Shown here: piece by piece, positions 18,566 through 58,646 of the stretch | Numbering within the stretch: the stretch's first letter is position 1 | Layout of the letters: every line of letters begins with the position of its first letter | Assembly (NCBI RefSeq): GCF_001683915.1 | Contig: NZ_LXTT01000076.1 | Location: 1 to 64,000, forward strand | Reading direction: 5' to 3' | Source: Allomuricauda sp. CP2A | GTDB lineage: Bacteria > Bacteroidota > Bacteroidia > Flavobacteriales > Flavobacteriaceae | DNA length: 64,000 nt | Notes under the pieces: generated by a model | What the model was told of the DNA's origin: nothing | Database searches by the model: none | Seen by the model: the letters and a program-made list of their open reading frames with translations, nothing else | Made by a program: the position numbers and the translations under genes

Positions 18566-19650
18566 ACACAAGTGTTTATAAAGTATTGGGATTGATGTCC
18601 GGCACCTCCTTGGATGGACTGGATATGGCCTATTGCCATCTTTGGGAAGAAAAAGGCCGTTGGCAATTCTCCATTGAGCATACCAAGGAAATTCCCTATG
18701 CTGATGCGATGCGGAATTATCTGAAAAATGCCATTTATCTTTCGGAAAAGGACCATGCCCAACTCCACAAGGACTATGGCAAATGGTTGGGAGAACAAGC
18801 TAAGATTTTTATTGAAGAGAGTAGTATTGAAGTTGATTTTATCGCGAGCCATGGACATACTTCCCACCATCGACCCGAAGAGGGCATCACCTTTCAGTTG
18901 GGAGACGGACAACTTTTGTCCAACGCAAGTGGCAAACAGGTCGTGTGCGATTTTAGGACCAAAGATGTTGGCCTGGGGGGACAAGGTGCGCCTTTGGTCC
19001 CGATTGGAGACCGACTTTTGTTCCATGACTATGATTTCTGCCTGAATTTGGGGGGAATCAGTAATATTTCCTTTGAAAAAAATGGTGAACGGATTGCCTA
19101 TGATATTGGAATGGCCAACATGCCTTTGAATCATATCACCCACAAAATGGGATTGGATTATGATGAAAACGGAAAGCTGGCCCGAAGCGGGAAATTGGAC
19201 GATGACTTGTTGAAAAAACTCAACCAACTTGAATATTATCGACTACCCTATCCCAAATCCACAGGATATGAATGGTTTACTGGAAAAATTGTTCCATTGA
19301 TTGAAGCTTCCAACAGTTCAGAAATCGATTTGCTAAATACTTTTATCCACCATAACTGTGAACAGATTGCTTTGAGTATCCACAAGCACCAAAACAAATC
19401 AAAAAGCAAATTATTGGTCACGGGTGGTGGGGCTCTTAACCAATTCTTTATGGATGTGCTCCAAGAAAAACTAGGATTCGATACCGAAGTGGTTGTTCCC
19501 AACAAAACATTGATTGCCTATAAGGAAGCCTTGGTTTTTGCTTTAATGGGCGTGCTTCGGTTGAAGGGCATTACCAATGTTTTGAAATCTGTTACCGGAG
19601 CACGAGAGGATTCCTGTAGTGGCGAAGTCCATTTTCCGGAAACCGGTTAA
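18562..19650 (+). CDS. anmK: Anhydro-N-acetylmuramic acid kinase
   Basis: AnmK opens the 1,6-anhydro ring of anhydro-MurNAc and phosphorylates it to MurNAc-6-P, the substrate of MurQ. The 362-residue protein has the ASKHA-fold signatures GLMSGTSLDGLDMAY at the start, GQGAPLVPIGDRLLF and NLGGISNIS in the middle, and VTGGGALNQFF towards the end, as in the family. It overlaps nagZ by four bases (ATGA), so the two should be translationally coupled. Its stop codon overlaps that of the convergent exporter gene by four bases. Confidence 0.95.
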   Translation: MNTSVYKVLGLMSGTSLDGLDMAYCHLWEEKGRWQFSIEHTKEIPYADAMRNYLKNAIYLSEKDHAQLHKDYGKWLGEQAKIFIEESSIEVDFIASHGHTSHHRPEEGITFQLGDGQLLSNASGKQVVCDFRTKDVGLGGQGAPLVPIGDRLLFHDYDFCLNLGGISNISFEKNGERIAYDIGMANMPLNHITHKMGLDYDENGKLARSGKLDDDLLKKLNQLEYYRLPYPKSTGYEWFTGKIVPLIEASNSSEIDLLNTFIHHNCEQIALSIHKHQNKSKSKLLVTGGGALNQFFMDVLQEKLGFDTEVVVPNKTLIAYKEALVFALMGVLRLKGITNVLKSVTGAREDSCSGEVHFPETG

Positions 19651-20855
19651 GCTGTTGCCAATCGATTAGGTCTTTTCACCATCATCAAAATAATGAGGGA
19701 AAACAAGCCACAAATACCCAACCCAACAAAAAGGGGCCAAACACTGTGTTCCACAAATTCACCAATGAAGGTTGCAATGGGAATGGCAACTATCGTTGAA
19801 ACACATCCATTGATGGCTGCGCCTATTCCAGCAATATGACCGATGGGTTCCATAGCAATGGAACGGAAATTTCCCCACATAAAGCCCAAACAAAAGAACT
19901 GTGCCGAAAGAAATGGCACCAATACAAAAATGCTGGGATTTGGGGAGTTCAGGAACAAAATGGTATACATCAATCCAATGATGGTAAACGCCAAAGTGGC
20001 CATCCATGACAATTTTCGCATACCAAAACGCATCACCAAAGTCCCATTTAGGAATGTGGACAGGCCTATGGAAATGGCCAATCCCGCAAAAATGTATGGG
20101 AAGACCTCTTTCATGCTATAGATATCTTCAAAAATATGCTGGGCCGAACTTAGATAAACCAAAAAAGCCCCGGTCACCAAGCCCGAGACAATGGTAAAAG
20201 CAACCGTTTCCCTATACTTTATAAATTCCTTCAACCCATCGATGAAAACGTGACTTGAAAAGGGAATTTTATACTCAGGGTGCAAGGTTTCAGGCTGTCT
20301 TTTCCAAAACCATACCGCTATGATCAGTGCAAAAATGAGCTGTGCATAAAAAATAGCTTCCCATCCAAAGCCATCCAGAATGACTTTCCCGATAGCCGGT
20401 GCCACCACGGGCACCAAAATAAAAAAGGCTACCACAAAAGACATGATTTTGGCCATGTAATCACCCACATACGTGTCCCGAATAATGGAAATTGCCATGG
20501 TTCTCGGGGCGGAAAGTCCAATTCCCTGCAAGATCCTTCCAACAATCATTATCACTAATGATGGCGCAAACAAACAAATCAAACTTCCTATCAAGAAAAG
20601 GCCAAAACCTATATAAACAATGGGTTTTCTTCCATAACAATCGGAAAGAGGCCCAAAGAACAACTGCCCCAAACCAAGTCCTAAGAAAATCATGGTCACC
20701 AGCAGTTGGTTATCGGTAGAATCCAAGCTGTTTATGGCCACGCCAATATTGGAAATGGCGGGCAAAAGGGCATCAATGGCCAACGCTACGATGGACATCA
20801 AAGCGGCCATAAGCGCAATAAATTCGAAGTTGGGTTTCTGATTTTCTTTTTGCAT
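19647..20855 (-). CDS. Bcr/CflA-family MFS drug exporter
   Basis: The 402-residue protein has 12 predicted membrane helices and the DHA1 drug-exporter pattern. GPLSDCYGRKPIVYIG is the loop 2-3 motif A (about residues 68-83), and GIGLSAPRTMAISIIRD corresponds to motif C-like sequence in helices 4-5. Bcr/CflA proteins export bicyclomycin, chloramphenicol and other small molecules. It is convergent with anmK and probably unrelated to recycling, although export of wall or sugar metabolites cannot be excluded. A perfect -7 element lies just upstream of the start codon. Confidence 0.85.
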   Translation of the reverse strand: MQKENQKPNFEFIALMAALMSIVALAIDALLPAISNIGVAINSLDSTDNQLLVTMIFLGLGLGQLFFGPLSDCYGRKPIVYIGFGLFLIGSLICLFAPSLVIMIVGRILQGIGLSAPRTMAISIIRDTYVGDYMAKIMSFVVAFFILVPVVAPAIGKVILDGFGWEAIFYAQLIFALIIAVWFWKRQPETLHPEYKIPFSSHVFIDGLKEFIKYRETVAFTIVSGLVTGAFLVYLSSAQHIFEDIYSMKEVFPYIFAGLAISIGLSTFLNGTLVMRFGMRKLSWMATLAFTIIGLMYTILFLNSPNPSIFVLVPFLSAQFFCLGFMWGNFRSIAMEPIGHIAGIGAAINGCVSTIVAIPIATFIGEFVEHSVWPLFVGLGICGLFSLIILMMVKRPNRLATA

Positions 20856-20867: not shown

Positions 20868-20957
20868 GGCATACCCTATAGATCGGTAAAGCTTTTAAGA
20901 AAGTATTAATGTTATGTTCAAATAGGTTTTCTTTATTGTTCTTTTTTTAGCTTGGAT

Positions 20958-21034
20958 GTCAGGTCGAGCGCAATCGAGACCTATACCACAACATCTTCAT
21001 TAAACATAGTGTCAGGTCGAGCGCAGTCGAGACC
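20958..21034 (+). repeat. Two direct copies of the 24-bp GGTCGAG repeat
   Basis: Copies at 20958-20981 and 21011-21034 begin GTCAGGTCGAGCGCA and end TCGAGACC; they differ at one base (AATCGAG versus AGTCGAG). The unit is an imperfect palindrome with TCGA in both arms. The second copy abuts the stop codon of the GIY-YIG gene. An inverted copy with an extra palindrome lies at the other end of that gene. Confidence 0.85.
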
Positions 21035-21355
21035 TCAATCTTGGTCAGGATTATACTTATAATGCGAAGCATTTCTGCATTCAGCCAAAATCTGCAATAA
21101 ATCAACATCTCCTTTTGACAATGCTATTTTCTTTTTGGCACTCCATTTCTTTATCTTCTTTTCAAAGGAAATAGCTTGAAGCACATCATTGAATTCTTGC
21201 TGGAATACAAGTTCAACTGGCCTTCTGCGATAGGTGAAAGCATTTTTGCTCAACCCATTTTGATGTTCATTGATTCTACGGGCAACATTGTCCGTGATTC
21301 CCGTATAGGTCAACCCATCGGAACATAATAAAATGTATACGTAGTATAATTTCAT
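21035..21355 (-). CDS. Single-domain GIY-YIG nuclease
   Basis: The 106-residue protein consists of one GIY-YIG nuclease domain of the short UvrC-like/UPF0213 type. The motif appears as YVYILLCSDGLTYTGIT at residues 4-20, followed by the catalytic Arg in RRINEHQNG and the metal-binding Glu in SFEKKIKKW. The tail LAECRNASHYKYNPDQD is outside the domain. The ORF fills almost all the space between inverted copies of a 24-bp palindromic repeat: its stop codon touches one copy and its start codon is 9 bp from the other. This suggests that the nuclease and repeats travel together. The target and role of such short nucleases are poorly known; DNA cleavage at the repeat is an inference. Confidence 0.85.
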   Translation of the reverse strand: MKLYYVYILLCSDGLTYTGITDNVARRINEHQNGLSKNAFTYRRRPVELVFQQEFNDVLQAISFEKKIKKWSAKKKIALSKGDVDLLQILAECRNASHYKYNPDQD

Positions 21356-21364
21356 GGTTAAAGA

Positions 21365-21409
21365 GGTCTCGACTGCCTGCCCGTCCAGCAGGCGGGCGCT
21401 CGACCTGAC
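21365..21409 (+). repeat. Inverted composite copy of the 24-bp repeat
   Basis: GGTCTCGACTGC (21365-21376) and GCGCTCGACCTGAC (21396-21409) are the two halves of the repeat seen at 20958-21034, in the opposite orientation. They are split by CTGCCCGTCCAGCAGGCGG, itself a hairpin (GCCCG.../CAGGCGGGC). The same composite design occurs inside the gene at 26039-27448. Confidence 0.85.
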
Positions 21410-21432
21410 AACTTCTGTAGCCTACAATAAAC

Positions 21433-22983
21433 TTACAACGGAATATTCCCATGCTTCCGTTTGGGAGGCTCCACATGCTTCTTCTCCAGCATGGCAAAGG
21501 CCTTGAGTAATTTTCGCCGGGTGTTCTTGGGCAAAATCACCTCATCAATAAAACCACGTTGGGCCGCACGATACGGATTGGCGAACTTTTCTGCGTACTC
21601 GGCTTCTTTTTCTTTCAATTTGGCCTCAGGGTCTTCCGCAGCGGCTATTTCCCGCCTGAAAATGATCTCACTGGCTCCTTTGGCGCCCATTACCGCAATT
21701 TCGCCAGATGGCCATGCAAAGTTGAAATCGGCACCAATGTGCTTGGAGTTCATCACATCATACGCACCTCCATAGGCTTTTCGGGTAATGACCGTTACGC
21801 GGGGTACTGTAGCTTCACTCAATGCATACAGCAATTTTGCACCATGCATAATGATACCACTCCACTCTTGATCGGTACCGGGCAAAAATCCGGGAACATC
21901 CACCAAGACCAACAACGGAATATTGAAAGCATCACAAAATCGGGTAAAACGAGCAGCCTTTCGGGAACTATTTACGTCTAAAACCCCGGCAAGGAACATA
22001 GGTTGATTGGCTATAATGCCAATGCTCCGCCCCCCCAATCGGGCGAAGCCCACAATGATGTTTTCAGCGTAGTCCTTGTGAATCTCATAGAACGAATCCG
22101 AATCAATAATCCCATTGATCACATCGTGCATGTCATAGGGCTTATTGGGGTTGTCGGGAACGACAGAGGACAATTCTTCCCGAAGTTCCTCTCCCAATTC
22201 ATAGTCTTGAATCGGAGGAAGTTCAGTGTTGTTTTGGGGTAGATATTCCATCAATTTTTTGATGTCGTCCAAACAAGCGGCATCATTTGACGAGGTTTTG
22301 TGGGCCACTCCAGATTTAACGGCATGTGCACTGGCACCCCCCAATTCTTCCGAAGTCACCTCCTCATTCGTCACGGTTTTTACCACATTGGGCCCAGTCA
22401 CGAACATATAGCTGGTCTCTTCCACCATAATGATAAAATCCGTCATGGCTGGGGAGTACACAGCCCCACCGGCACAGGGCCCCATCACCGCGGATATTTG
22501 CGGAATGACTCCAGAGGCCTGCACGTTCCTGTAAAAAATATCAGCATAACCGCCAAGGGATCTCACCCCTTCCTGAATCCGTGCACCACCGGAATCGTTC
22601 AACCCAATGATGGGTGCTCCGACCTTCATGGCCAAGTCCATCACCTTACAGATTTTCTCGGCATGGGTTTCGGATAAGGCTCCACCAAAAACCGTAAAAT
22701 CCTGCGCATACACATACACCAACCTGCCGTTGATGGTTCCGTAGCCAGTGACCACGCCATCCCCATAATAGATTTCCTTGTCCATACCAAAATCCGTGGT
22801 ACGGTGGGTCACCAAAATGCCCATTTCCTCAAACGAACCTTCATCCAAGAGATAGTGGATGCGTTCCCTTGCGGTAAGTTTTTTCTTTTGATGCTGTTTG
22901 TCTATCCGCTTTTCCCCACCACCCAAACGGGCCTGGGCCATTTTTTCTTCCAGTGCTTTTATTTTGGGGTCCATTGAACTCAA
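21433..22983 (-). CDS. pccB: Acyl-CoA carboxylase carboxyltransferase subunit
   Basis: The 516-residue protein is a biotin-dependent carboxyltransferase of the propionyl-CoA carboxylase beta/MmdA type, with N and C crotonase-like halves. Signs are [17 protein letters not shown] and [17 protein letters not shown] in the N half, and [13 protein letters not shown] and AYGGAYDVM in the C half. It takes carboxyl-biotin from the carrier and makes methylmalonyl-CoA from propionyl-CoA. It overlaps the biotin carboxylase gene by 4 bp and forms an operon with it and the carrier. Methylmalonyl-CoA mutase genes a few kb away support propionyl-CoA as substrate; acetyl-CoA cannot be excluded by sequence alone. 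Confidence 0.93.
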
Positions 22984-25713: not shown

Positions 25714-26046
25714 ATGGGTCTGAAGGAATTGAGAAAGAAAAAGTGGTTCAAGATCATGACCAATACGTATATTTTGGTCCTGACCATTTTTGTCATTTGG
25801 ATGGCCTTTTTTGATACAAATTCACTACTGATCCATCTGGAACTCCGAAGAGAGATCAAAAAGCTTGAAGAACAGAAAGAATTTTTGAAAAGCGAGATTG
25901 AAAAGGACAAAAAAGTACTGGAAACCTTGTCCGATGAAGAAGAACTTGAAAAATTCGCCCGAGAAAGGTATTATATGAAAAAGGAGAATGAAGAGATTTT
26001 CCTCATTGAATATGAAGACAGTTTAAAAAACAAGGAAGATGAGTAA
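25714..26046 (+). CDS. DivIC/FtsB-type septum formation protein
   Basis: The 110-residue protein has a short cytoplasmic N terminus, one membrane helix (about residues 16-36) and a charged coiled coil (about 38-75, LRREIKKLEEQKEFLKSEIEK). It ends with the FtsB/DivIC-like motif FARERYYMKKENEEIFLIE. Such proteins join FtsL and FtsQ/DivIB in the divisome. It overlaps the next gene by 8 bp. The place between uridine kinase and methylmalonyl-CoA mutase appears to be a conserved flavobacterial arrangement rather than a functional link. Confidence 0.88.
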   Translation: MGLKELRKKKWFKIMTNTYILVLTIFVIWMAFFDTNSLLIHLELRREIKKLEEQKEFLKSEIEKDKKVLETLSDEEELEKFARERYYMKKENEEIFLIEYEDSLKNKEDE

Positions 26047-27448
26047 TATCGGTTTGTTTGACGAGTTTTCCCCAGTTACCGCAAAACAGTGGAAACAAAA
26101 GATTCAATTTGACCTAAAAGGTGCAGATTACAATGACACCTTGGTCTGGGAATCCTTGGAGGGCATCAAGACAAAGCCGTTTTACCATTCCGAGGATTTG
26201 GAAGGACTAAAAACCTCCCATCTTCCTAAAAACCATGGTTGGAACATTGCGCAGGGCATTTACGCTGCTGATGCGGGAAAAGCCAACATCAAAGCTCTGG
26301 ATGTCCTAAAAAAAGGGGTGGAAAGCTTGGTTTTTACCATTCCCAACGAGAAAACCGACTTCGCCAAGCTACTGAATGGGATTGATCTGGAAAACACCCC
26401 ACTTCACTTCAATTTTCAGTTTTTGGCTGTGGAACCCATCAAAAAACTGTTGGCTTATCTTGGTGATAAGACCTGTCAGGTTCACCTCAATATTGACCTA
26501 ATCGGAAATCTGGCCCGTAGTGGAAATTGGTTCCATACGTTGGAGAAAGACCATGCTGTTTTGGAAGAAATCAATGCGATTACTTCTCAAAAAACCAGTA
26601 TCGGCACCATTGGCGTGGACCTATCCCTCTACCAAAACGCTGGTGCCAATAAGGTGCAACAATTGGCCTATGGACTTGCCCAAGCCAACGAATACTTGAA
26701 TCATTTTGTCACTTCGAGCGCCCGCCTGCTGGACAGGCAGGCAGTCGAGAAGTTCCCAATCACCTTTAAAGTGGCCGTTGGAGGAAACTATTTCTTTGAA
26801 ATAGCCAAATTGAGGGCCTTACGTTGGCTTTGGAACAGTTTGGCACAAGAGTATGGCATTGAAAGTGACTGCCATATCCTTGCCATGCCTACTAAACGGA
26901 ACAAAACGGTGTATGATTACAACGTAAACTTGCTCCGAACCACTTCAGAATGTATGTCGGCCATTTTGGGAGGAGCGGACACCGTTTGCAATCTTCCGTA
27001 TGATGCCATCTACCACAAAGACAATGAATTTGGGGAGCGTATTGCACGAAATCAATTGTTGCTGTTGAAGGAGGAAAGCTATTTTAAGGAGGCTTCCCAA
27101 ATTTCCGAAGGAACCTATTGCATCGAATCACTCACGGAGCAATTGGCGGAAAAGGCACTGAACCTTTTCAAACAAGTGGAAAAATCGGGAGGATTTTTGG
27201 ATGCCCTGAAAAAGGGAACCATCCAACAAAAAATCAAGGAAAGTGCAGCAAAAGAGCAGCAACTTTTTGATGAGGGCAAAATGGTGCTGTTGGGCACCAA
27301 CAAGTATCAGAATCCGCAGGACAGAATGAAAGATGATCTGGAACTCTATCCTTTTGTAAAGACCCAGCCCAGAAAAACTTTGCTAGAACCCATTATCGAA
27401 AAGAGATTGGCTGAAACATTGGAACAAAAAAGACTGAACGATGAGTAG
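26039..27448 (+). CDS. mutA: Methylmalonyl-CoA mutase small subunit
   Basis: The 469-residue protein is the catalytically inactive small subunit of the B12-dependent mutase that interconverts methylmalonyl-CoA and succinyl-CoA. It keeps the barrel domain ([44 protein letters not shown]) but lacks the large subunit's full B12-binding region. Residues about 225-239 ([13 protein letters not shown]) are encoded by a 43-bp palindromic repeat at 26711-26753 that has kept the reading frame. The segment falls between NEYLNHFV and the conserved [10 protein letters not shown], probably in a surface loop. The gene overlaps divIC upstream and mutB downstream by 8 bp each. Confidence 0.93.
26711..26753 (+). 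repeat. Composite palindromic repeat inside the mutA gene
   Basis: ACTTC at 26711 and GAAGT at 26753 close a near-perfect palindrome. The inner part is TCGAGCG, then CCCGCCTGCTGGACAGGCAGG, then CAGTCGAG, which is the same composite layout as the repeat at 21365-21409. The insert keeps the frame and encodes about 14 residues. Confidence 0.9.
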
Positions 27449-56441: not shown

Positions 56442-58646
56442 ATGACAGAGGCTGCCATTGAAAAAGAGAACAAGGAGATTGCAAAGCAGTACAAGGAATT
56501 GCTTCGCATCAGCTATCAAACCTTGACCGATGAGGACAAGAAGTTGATACGCTCTGCCTTTGATGTGGCCGTAGATGCCCATAAAGATCAAAGGCGGAAA
56601 TCAGGGGAAGCTTACATTTTCCATCCCATTGCCGTGGCCAAGATTGTGGCGTCCAAAATTGGGCTGGATGCCGTTTCCATTGCCTCCGCCCTACTCCATG
56701 ATGTAGTTGAGGACACCCCTTACACCTTGGATGACATTGAACGTATGTTCGGGGAAACCGTTGCCCGGATTGTGGATGGCCTTACCAAGATTGCCCACTT
56801 GAAAAAGGATAAGGACATCAGTCAACAAGCGGAAAATTTCCGAAAAATGCTGTTGACCCTCCATGATGATGTGCGGGTGATCATCATTAAAATTGCGGAT
56901 CGCTACCACAATATGCTCACCATGGATTCCATGCCAGAGCACAAACAGGTCAAAATCGCTTCGGAAACGCTTTATATCTATGCACCCCTGGCCCACAGGA
57001 TTGGCCTCTACAACATAAAAACGCATCTAGAGGATCTCGCCCTAAAATACACCGAGCCTGATGTCTATTACGATATTCAGGCCAAAATTGAGGATACCGA
57101 AGAGGAAAACCTCGCTTACATTGAAGCCTTTTCCGATGTCATCCGGAATTCGTTGGACAAGGAAGGGCTCAATTACCACATTAAAGGACGCATGAAGTCC
57201 ATTTTTTCCATCCGAAGGAAAATGAAGTCCCAAAATGTGCCCTTTGATGAGGTCTATGACAAATTTGCGATTCGGATCATCTACAAATCGGACAGGAAAA
57301 ACGAAAAATTTCTCGCCTGGAAAATCTATTCCATCGTAACGGACCACTTCACCCCAAACCCCATTCGCCTTCGGGATTGGATCACTTCTCCCAAATCCAC
57401 TGGGTATGAAGCATTGCACATCACCGTTATGGGCCCCAAAGGAAAATGGGTAGAGGTACAGATTAGAAGTGAGCGGATGCATGAAATTGCCGAAAAAGGT
57501 TATGCGGCTCACTTCAAATACAAGCATGGTGACCAAAAAGAACAGGGTATTGAGGAATGGCTGAACCGACTTCAAGAGGCGTTGGAAGGTGCCAATGGGA
57601 ATGCTGTGGATTTTGTGGAGGAGTTCAAACTCAACCTCTATTCCAAAGAAATTTTTGTCTTTACGCCCAAGGGCGAGCTAAAGTCCATGCCCAAAGGAGC
57701 AACAGCACTGGATTTTGCCTTCCATATCCATACCGAAATAGGCATGAAGACACGAGGGGCCAAGGTGAACGGCAAATTGGTGCCTCTGGGTTCCGAACTG
57801 CAAAGTGGAGATCAGGTGGAGATCATTACCTCGGAAACCGCAAAACCCACCCAAAGCTGGTTGGATTATGCGCAGACCGCGCGGGCAAGGTCTAAAATTA
57901 AATCCTCTTTAAAAGAAGAGAAAAAGAGCGTTGCCGAGGAAGGGAAGGAAATTCTCCGCAGAAAATTGAAATCCCAAAAAATCAACCTCAACGAGGATAC
58001 GGTCAACAAATTGGTCACGTATTTTAAACTAAAAACCAGTTTGGACCTGTTCTATCGGGTGGGCATTGGGGTCATCGACAATGAAAAACTGAAGGATTTT
58101 GCGTCCTCCTACCATAATGCGTTCCTCAATTTCTTCAAAAACCGCATCCGACGGACACCAGCTCCCAAGGATGTCGATAAGGATGAAATCACCACCAAGT
58201 ACGACATGCTTGTATTTGGTAAGGAGGAAGAAAAATTGAACTACAAGCTTTCACAATGCTGCAATCCCATTCCCGGGGATGACGTTTTTGGTTTTGTGAG
58301 TGTGACCGATGGTATAAAAGTGCACAAAAAGAACTGCCCGAATGCCATTTCCCTCCAATCCAACTATGCCTATCGAATCATCAGTGCCAAATGGATAGAT
58401 TCCACACAGGAAGAGTTTTCCGTGGACATTCAACTTACGGGAATCGATAACTTGGGATTGGTCAATGATATTACCAATATCATCTCGGACAACATGCACG
58501 TAAACATGAGAAACCTTAATTTCTCCTCCGATGGCGGCACCTTCAAGGGAAAGATCACCCTTGTGGTAAAAAACAATAACATCATTAAAAAGTTGATGGA
58601 CAACTTAAAGCAGGTAGAGGGAATCGACAAAGTGACCAGAATTTAA
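56442..58646 (+). CDS. RelA/SpoT-type (p)ppGpp synthetase/hydrolase
   Basis: The 734-residue Rsh protein has an HD hydrolase domain (HPIAVAKIVA, ALLHDVVEDT, KIADRYHNMLT) at about residues 45-200, a synthetase domain at about 240-370 (GRMKSIFSIRRKM, DKFAIRIIY, STGYEALHITV, EVQIRSERMHEIAEKG), a TGS domain near 400-460 (IFVFTPKGELKSMPKGATALDFAF), a zinc-finger-like region with CCNPIPGDDV, and a C-terminal ACT domain. Both catalytic domains look intact, so it should make and degrade (p)ppGpp. It lies 40 bp before the Fur-family gene. Confidence 0.95.
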   Translation: MTEAAIEKENKEIAKQYKELLRISYQTLTDEDKKLIRSAFDVAVDAHKDQRRKSGEAYIFHPIAVAKIVASKIGLDAVSIASALLHDVVEDTPYTLDDIERMFGETVARIVDGLTKIAHLKKDKDISQQAENFRKMLLTLHDDVRVIIIKIADRYHNMLTMDSMPEHKQVKIASETLYIYAPLAHRIGLYNIKTHLEDLALKYTEPDVYYDIQAKIEDTEEENLAYIEAFSDVIRNSLDKEGLNYHIKGRMKSIFSIRRKMKSQNVPFDEVYDKFAIRIIYKSDRKNEKFLAWKIYSIVTDHFTPNPIRLRDWITSPKSTGYEALHITVMGPKGKWVEVQIRSERMHEIAEKGYAAHFKYKHGDQKEQGIEEWLNRLQEALEGANGNAVDFVEEFKLNLYSKEIFVFTPKGELKSMPKGATALDFAFHIHTEIGMKTRGAKVNGKLVPLGSELQSGDQVEIITSETAKPTQSWLDYAQTARARSKIKSSLKEEKKSVAEEGKEILRRKLKSQKINLNEDTVNKLVTYFKLKTSLDLFYRVGIGVIDNEKLKDFASSYHNAFLNFFKNRIRRTPAPKDVDKDEITTKYDMLVFGKEEEKLNYKLSQCCNPIPGDDVFGFVSVTDGIKVHKKNCPNAISLQSNYAYRIISAKWIDSTQEEFSVDIQLTGIDNLGLVNDITNIISDNMHVNMRNLNFSSDGGTFKGKITLVVKNNNIIKKLMDNLKQVEGIDKVTRI

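Follow-up and report, generated by a model that had tools for sequence, protein, structure and literature searches.

The closest precedent for the locus described here is the Ssn family. These enzymes, reportedly described by Chenal et al. in 2025, are said to be site-specific single-strand GIY-YIG nucleases of the Neisseria NTS repeats, to consist of a single GIY-YIG domain with a cognate dispersed repeat, and to have many homologues of differing specificity. Like the Ssn enzymes, the present system has a cognate repeat that is dispersed in the host genome. A second comparison is offered by the RAYTs, tyrosine transposases related to IS200/IS605 with the repeat tag GTAG (Bertels and Rainey, 2011, PMC3116915). 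In the passages of that paper on RAYTs and REPINs the enzyme gene is single-copy, largely congruent with the species and accompanied by a repeat beside it, and the repeats are mostly inverted doublets with one repeat type per enzyme (PMC3116915), in all of which they resemble the present system. Unlike RAYTs, the enzyme studied here is a GIY-YIG protein that matches PF01541 only, and the tag is GTC(A), not GTAG. A third comparison is with the CGTC-tagged REPs, a class that takes in Neisseria dRS3, two Rickettsia repeats and repeats of Bacteroidetes; the passages on this class report no associated transposase gene, describe the heterodimer preference of most families as unexplained, and make no mention of GIY-YIG nucleases (Di Nocera et al., 2013, PMC3733652). 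No paper linking GIY-YIG nucleases to REPs was found among the matches listed in a search of the open-licence literature, which says little about what is in print overall.

The locus lies in a stretch of 64,000 nucleotides, hereafter the window, from the 4.27 Mb genome of Allomuricauda sp. CP2A. This genome belongs to the Flagellimonas/Allomuricauda/Muricauda group, to which it is assigned through named loci identical, in protein and in upstream DNA, to loci of congeners. The locus comprises the following features, given with the two flanking genes and a related repeat at some distance:

19647–20855, minus strand: MFS transporter gene, outside the cassette, serving as syntenic anchor on one flank
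20957–20982, plus strand: repeat copy 1, the far-side direct copy, with TGTC tag and stem arms GGTC/GACC
21010–21035, plus strand: repeat copy 2, direct copy, tag directed away from the nuclease gene
21035–21355, minus strand: GIY-YIG nuclease of 106 aa, clade A, with a PF01541 match
21363–21410, minus strand: repeat copy 3, inverted, tag directed away from the nuclease gene
21375–21396, no strand: nested palindrome in the loop of copy 3
21433–22983, minus strand: carboxyltransferase gene, outside the cassette, serving as syntenic anchor on the other flank
26708–26752, plus strand: related repeat with arms CTTC/GAAG, in frame within ORF 26039–27448

We take ORF 21433–22983 to encode a carboxyltransferase and ORF 19647–20855 an MFS transporter. 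Among the listed ORFs of 60 aa or more, the nuclease ORF alone lies wholly between the repeats, and it is boxed by inverted palindromic repeats as a preliminary description of this DNA had proposed, with two direct copies on the left and an inverted copy on the right. Copies 1 and 2, of 26 nt each and 96% identical, both lie 3' of the nuclease stop codon, which had been said to touch the repeat and does so, since its position at 21035–21037 overlaps the last base of copy 2. Copy 3 lies 5' of the start codon, at a measured distance of 7 nt where 9 bp had been given, and its two halves, which are 15 and 14 nt long and complement the left copies at 100%, are separated by a nested palindrome that had also been noticed correctly. 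The chance expectation of the repeat 22-mer is 0.00 (100 shuffles). All three copies have a TGTCA end, here called the tag, directed outward from the nuclease gene, and thus carry the TGTC by which one end of CGTC-tagged REPs is recognized. The window repeats share with that class the CGTC/TGTC tag and the occurrence as dimers, with heterodimers in some families (PMC3733652). They differ from it in the stem, described for the class as 8–9 bp with an AT start and a CCA tail (PMC3733652), whereas that of the window repeat has 4–5 pairs, begins with GG or AGG and has no CCA tail. The window repeat therefore agrees with only part of the definition of CGTC-tagged REPs.

The window protein is a lone GIY-YIG domain, matching Pfam PF01541 over residues 4–76 (E 1.5e-17, 64.1 bits, cut-off 22.6) as its only Pfam match at E 0.001, and none of the NCBIfam models matched it. 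Residues Y7, Y17, G19, R27, and E65 are invariant among seven aligned clade A and B proteins, and are presumably the residues that include the GIY and YIG tyrosines and the catalytic Arg and Glu. The closest solved sequences are the UPF0213 proteins PDB 1zg2 and 1ywl (E 7e-10 and 1e-9), deposited as hypothetical proteins with no substrate named; the same two head the fold comparison of the predicted model (mean pLDDT 80.8), followed by Slx1. A defence or phage origin was considered and rejected, with no match in a PADLOC search for a defence origin and one weak PHROG match (E 0.005). The gene looks to be under selection, judging from a median dN/dS of 0.08. This median was taken over the 49 pairs, out of 105, in which dS is below 3, and is rough because the median dS is 1.8.

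To the repeat we ascribe the structure of a hairpin under selection, as indicated by covariation among all copies, at the loci then assembled, with the loop core GAGCG-N-AGTCGA, arms and tag being left free (134 distinct 25-mers). Watson-Crick pairs occur at the four stem positions in 102, 113, 121, and 126 of the 134 distinct copies, against maxima of 61, 62, 80, and 90 in 2000 shuffles per position; these counts are inflated by related copies, although many arm types nonetheless occur. A fifth, outer pair is weaker (59 of 134 against up to 52 in shuffles). The claim of a hairpin rests on covariation; the predicted DNA folding energies are no better than those of shuffles in four of the five repeat types tried, the window type among them. 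The commonest head is GTCA (62 of the 134 distinct copies), while the clade C type starts with GGTG. Nested palindromes or inserts were seen in the loops of repeats or of doublet partners at 21375–21396, at 26724–26742, and at the loci L021, L022, L024, L030, and L033, and since they recur at several sites the loop looks like an insertion hot spot.

The pairing of nuclease and repeat was quantified across the genus by a boxing score, i.e., the best local alignment of the 200 nt upstream of a gene with the reverse complement of the 200 nt downstream, a score of at least 14 being counted as strong. The scored ORFs came from 60 genomes of the genus, the window genome included. They comprised the 13 GIY-YIG places of the window genome, 30 loci for the best relatives of the ORF, and 80 further matches, the next in the list for which there was no locus yet (rows from the window genome and one partial row were passed over). 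The sample and the clades within it thus stand for the matches listed, ranked by similarity to the window protein. Left out beforehand were the multi-domain loci L007 and L010; L012 and L013 gave no match, and one of the 121 ORFs lay too close to a contig end, so that 120 were scored, with the split genes L011, L149, and L180 counted twice. The 335 control genes were taken from 20 stretches, each of 20 kb, whose coordinates were chosen arbitrarily but not at random; with a median of 265 aa they are longer than the nucleases.

A score of at least 14 was reached by 59 of the 120 GIY-YIG ORFs among the matches listed in the 60 genomes, and by one of the 335 control genes. The preliminary description had named a repeat spread genome-wide with no association to GIY-YIG ORFs as evidence against its proposal; this is not what was found. 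None of 82 size-matched controls (80–150 aa, same stretches) was boxed. Of 49 gap-matched controls from these stretches, with 100 nt or more of intergenic DNA on either side, one was boxed, by an unrelated AT-rich match. Apart from the nuclease, one ORF of the window, 56442–58646 (734 aa), has a score of 14.5, which is due to an unrelated AT-rich match. Mismatched pairs of GIY-YIG flanks scored at least 14 in 20 of 300 cases, as expected because two loci may share one repeat type. Among the named loci, 65 of the best 80 of 108 were boxed at this threshold, the misparsed L287 counting as not boxed. In the wider phylum 15 of 31 ORFs were boxed (the 30 best loci of another clade's search, own genome included), in a sample that had no control genes of its own, and several of these loci are boxed by TGTCATTCCCGCG-type repeats. 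The association of nuclease and repeat is beyond chance, and the boxed counts do not represent independent events because loci of one clade share ancestry. In one genome of the phylum (L312, G125 contig C86, 45033–54752) four GIY-YIG matches with 68–70% likeness to the query lie within about 10 kb, possibly as a local amplification.

Boxing is uneven among clades, the borders of which were set by hand along the order of a midpoint-rooted tree, and not every GIY-YIG clade is boxed. At the threshold of 14 it was found in 15 of 16 loci in clade A, 3 of 4 in B, 15 of 17 in C and 11 of 17 in D, as well as in 2 of 2 in E, 4 of 11 in F, the single locus of G0 and 3 of 7 in I. Clades G (2 of 14), J (2 of 12), and M (1 of 7) are weakly boxed, and no locus reached the threshold in clades H (0 of 4), E2 (0 of 3), and K (0 of 5). 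Several loci of low-scoring clades (e.g., L004 and L200) are flanked on either side by GTC-tagged palindromes whose arms differ.

The repeat type changes with the nuclease clade, so that the boxed clades each have repeats of their own. Clades A and B were compared over 86 distinct loci (31 A and 55 B, after 13 duplicate loci had been dropped), counting only repeats with the core pattern GTC-n5-GAGC-n2to5-GTCGA. The inner stem is TC/GA in all 69 tag-outward repeats at the 31 clade A loci, and CT/AG in 99 of the 106 tag-outward repeats at the 55 clade B loci, where TC/GA occurs in one; the two types thus differ by two swapped base pairs. Of the 72 repeats at clade A loci, 69 have the tag outward and 3 inward; at clade B loci the figures are 106 and 23 of 129. 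A tag-outward repeat is present on both sides at 26 of 31 clade A and 33 of 55 clade B loci. The match of clade and repeat holds across genera. For the clade C repeat the 60 genomes contain 28 exact copies; 22 of these adjoin a clade C gene, and one more adjoins an unplaced GIY-YIG gene that lies at the end of a contig in G006. In clade D (L084, L086, L087, L123, L127, and L128) each gene has two repeat forms, CGTCACTTCGAGTG... upstream and CGTCAGTTCGAGTG... downstream, and these two forms are the same in several species. Clade J repeats are of the form TTGTCATTCCTGCG...AGGAATCCA, several with an AT stem start and a CCA tail. They fit the class of CGTC-tagged REPs closely, tail included, as it is defined in the passages on this class (PMC3733652).

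Outside the cassette the repeat family occupies other sites, as had been suggested. The degenerate repeat pattern matches 20 places in the window genome, and a reversed control pattern none. All but one of the 20 are outside any ORF of 100 aa or more; 2 belong to the cassette, and 18 are dispersed. For 12 of the dispersed copies an inverted partner is recognized no more than 110 nt away by the strict pattern of the partner's tag half, which was preferred to a looser doublet pattern that gave 10 of 18 and missed visible partners. Five more (L021, L022, L024, L032, and L033) have a partner that is seen by eye, with a nested insert or a point change, leaving L025, which lies inside an ORF, as the only dispersed copy without a doublet partner. 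The doublets measure about 55–105 bp and have their tags outward as in the cassette. In the 10 doublets scored automatically the outer arm is never common to the two partners, and the first arm base is complementary in all 10. At L014–L033 the outer arms of partners were GG with CC or CT, and CA with GT. With differing outer arms each repeat can pair with itself and less well with its partner. This preserves local hairpins at the expense of a single long one and could explain the heterodimer preference described for CGTC-tagged REPs (PMC3733652).

Type A copies away from the locus number a median of 4 in 16 genomes with a clade A gene against 1 in 42 without (p 0.008, two remnant genomes dropped, kinship of genomes ignored). 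The repeats also persist without a clade A nuclease, with 9 copies in G005 and 7 in G022, a genome in which nothing matches the window protein at E 0.001. Among the dispersed copies examined in G027 (four, in a genome that is 88% complete) and G039 (three), one in each lies at a repeat site of the window genome, the same site in both cases. The L021 site is occupied in G000, and G039 can be aligned right through the repeat; G059 and G031 apparently keep its right half, and G027, G046, G057, G047, G011, and G032 have no repeat; the joints were examined by eye here and their exact positions are hidden by intergenic divergence, and at a second dispersed site the flanks are too diverged for the joints to be read. 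The dispersed repeats thus turn over.

The composite palindrome that had been placed inside mutA is real, though its stem arms (CTTC/GAAG) differ from those of the cassette (GGTC/GACC). It contains the same kind of nested palindrome at 26724–26742 and encodes, in frame, 15 residues in a loop after EYLNHF of ORF 26039–27448, which we take to be the methylmalonyl-CoA mutase small subunit. This loop was located in 47 of the 60 genomes, and the repeat core is present in 14 of them (own included), 12 with at least three of four stem pairs and with several arm types, while G027, G059, G040, and G056 have a short loop free of the repeat. The in-frame repeat resembles the Rickettsia elements inserted in proteins.

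The history of the locus bears on whether the cassette moves. In 59 genomes the place downstream of the carboxyltransferase gene could be identified: a full-length nuclease ORF is present there in 15 and a remnant in 2 (G027 and G012), 40 lack the nuclease ORF within the 1.5–2.4 kb read, and 2 are unreadable since their contigs end too soon (G002 and G038). When loci were grouped by flank similarity (single linkage, which can merge loci), the 16 of clade A formed a single group, and the 4 entries of clade B and the 17 of clade C likewise one group per clade; clades D and J have four groups each, and in these two clades the cassette may have moved. No second site for the clade A cassette was found among the 60 genus genomes searched, and DNA distances of the nuclease track those of the carboxyltransferase gene in 15 genomes (Mantel r 0.756, none of 5000 permutations as high). 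Present mobility of the clade A cassette was rejected because of this single syntenic site and the divergence in step with the neighbour gene. The window locus is inverted relative to all 14 comparable clade A orthologues. The remaining 101 pairs within clade A are collinear, and the G027 remnant is oriented as in the window; there is one further inverted pair in clade J, and 16 pairs of clade C are mixed.

The preliminary description had likened the layout to a minimal transposable or homing unit. Inverted ends and dispersed relatives speak for the former, whereas the lack of a second site among the 60 genomes and the fixed, syntenic position of the gene do not. It had also held that a fixed syntenic gene in relatives without repeats would count against the proposal, and of this only half applies, the gene being fixed and syntenic but accompanied by repeats. 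The comparison of loci with and without the cassette that it called for yielded the 40 genomes that lack the ORF, but by eye no target duplication was noticed in alignments at the cassette, a weak test with such diverged flanks. Homing is not supported either, as the nuclease ORF stands free in the intergenic gap between two uninterrupted ORFs.

The pairing of nuclease and repeat proposed at the outset is thus correct, and for clade A the present mobility of the cassette is not. The partnership itself is real and well supported. In our reading, to which we give a probability of about 0.75, a fixed, selected single-domain GIY-YIG nuclease probably has the flanking palindrome family as its substrate, and the dispersed doublets would be its satellites. 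When the repeat is in single-stranded DNA, as at replication forks or in DNA that has been taken up, it would form a short hairpin whose 5' GTC tag stays unpaired, and the nuclease would read the inner stem pairs and the loop and nick near the tag. The cassette would be the long form of the inverted repeat doublet with the gene as spacer, and the dispersed doublets would descend from cassette ends and be spread or kept by the activity of the nuclease, much as REPINs depend on RAYTs, although the enzyme is a different one. The cassette would by now have ceased to move, its inverted ends having allowed one flip in the lineage of the window. The analogy to RAYT/REP pairs with a different enzyme family, drawn already in the preliminary description, fits well, given the inverted doublets common to both and the single repeat type per enzyme.

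Three other explanations have to be weighed against this reading. It is conceivable, although unlikely, that the nuclease regulates itself by binding hairpins in the flanks of its own gene, in DNA or in mRNA, the dispersed copies then being strays or decoys. The repeats do abut its start and stop codons, and 22 of the 28 clade C copies lie at the clade C gene with one more at the unplaced GIY-YIG gene, but dispersed type A copies of the window genome mostly occur as doublets whose tags likewise point outward, 19 of 20 repeat places are outside ORFs of 100 aa or more, and a regulatory site would not be needed at both ends. More doubtful still is an active miniature transposon, i.e., a repeat-bounded cassette that still moves as a unit. 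The inverted ends, the short dispersed relatives with the same ends, the flip in orientation and the presence or absence of the cassette between species would all suit such an element; the single flank-similarity group of all 16 clade A loci and distances that track the neighbour gene do not, nor does the lack of a target duplication noticed in the alignments, although with diverged flanks this last point is weak. The least probable explanation, to which we give very little credence, is that repeats gathered passively in intergenic DNA and that the match of clade and repeat type reflects no more than shared ancestry of the locus. Vertical inheritance does make loci of one clade non-independent and the repeats are mostly intergenic, but passive gathering fits poorly with a single boxed gene among 335 controls (one of 49 where the gaps are wide on both sides), with a match of repeat type and clade that holds across genera, and with tags directed outward in 69 of 72 repeats at clade A and 106 of 129 at clade B.

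It is tempting to go one step further than the reading of a fixed nuclease with satellite doublets, and to speculate, at somewhat less than even odds, that GIY-YIG nucleases are the missing dedicated enzymes of the superfamily of GTC-tagged (CGTC/TGTC) REPs, i.e., a second, independently evolved system of enzyme and REPIN. The cassette would then be the autonomous form of the doublet, its nuclease nicking the folded repeat in single-stranded DNA and spreading doublets, and one genome could hold several mutually independent pairs of nuclease and repeat. As type A and type B repeats differ at two stem base pairs, the specificity of the enzymes is directly testable with a few oligonucleotides. 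The matched evolution of GIY-YIG clades and repeat types provides a candidate enzyme for the GTC-tagged REPs and, if this is true, the way of life known from RAYTs and REPINs would have arisen also with an unrelated enzyme.
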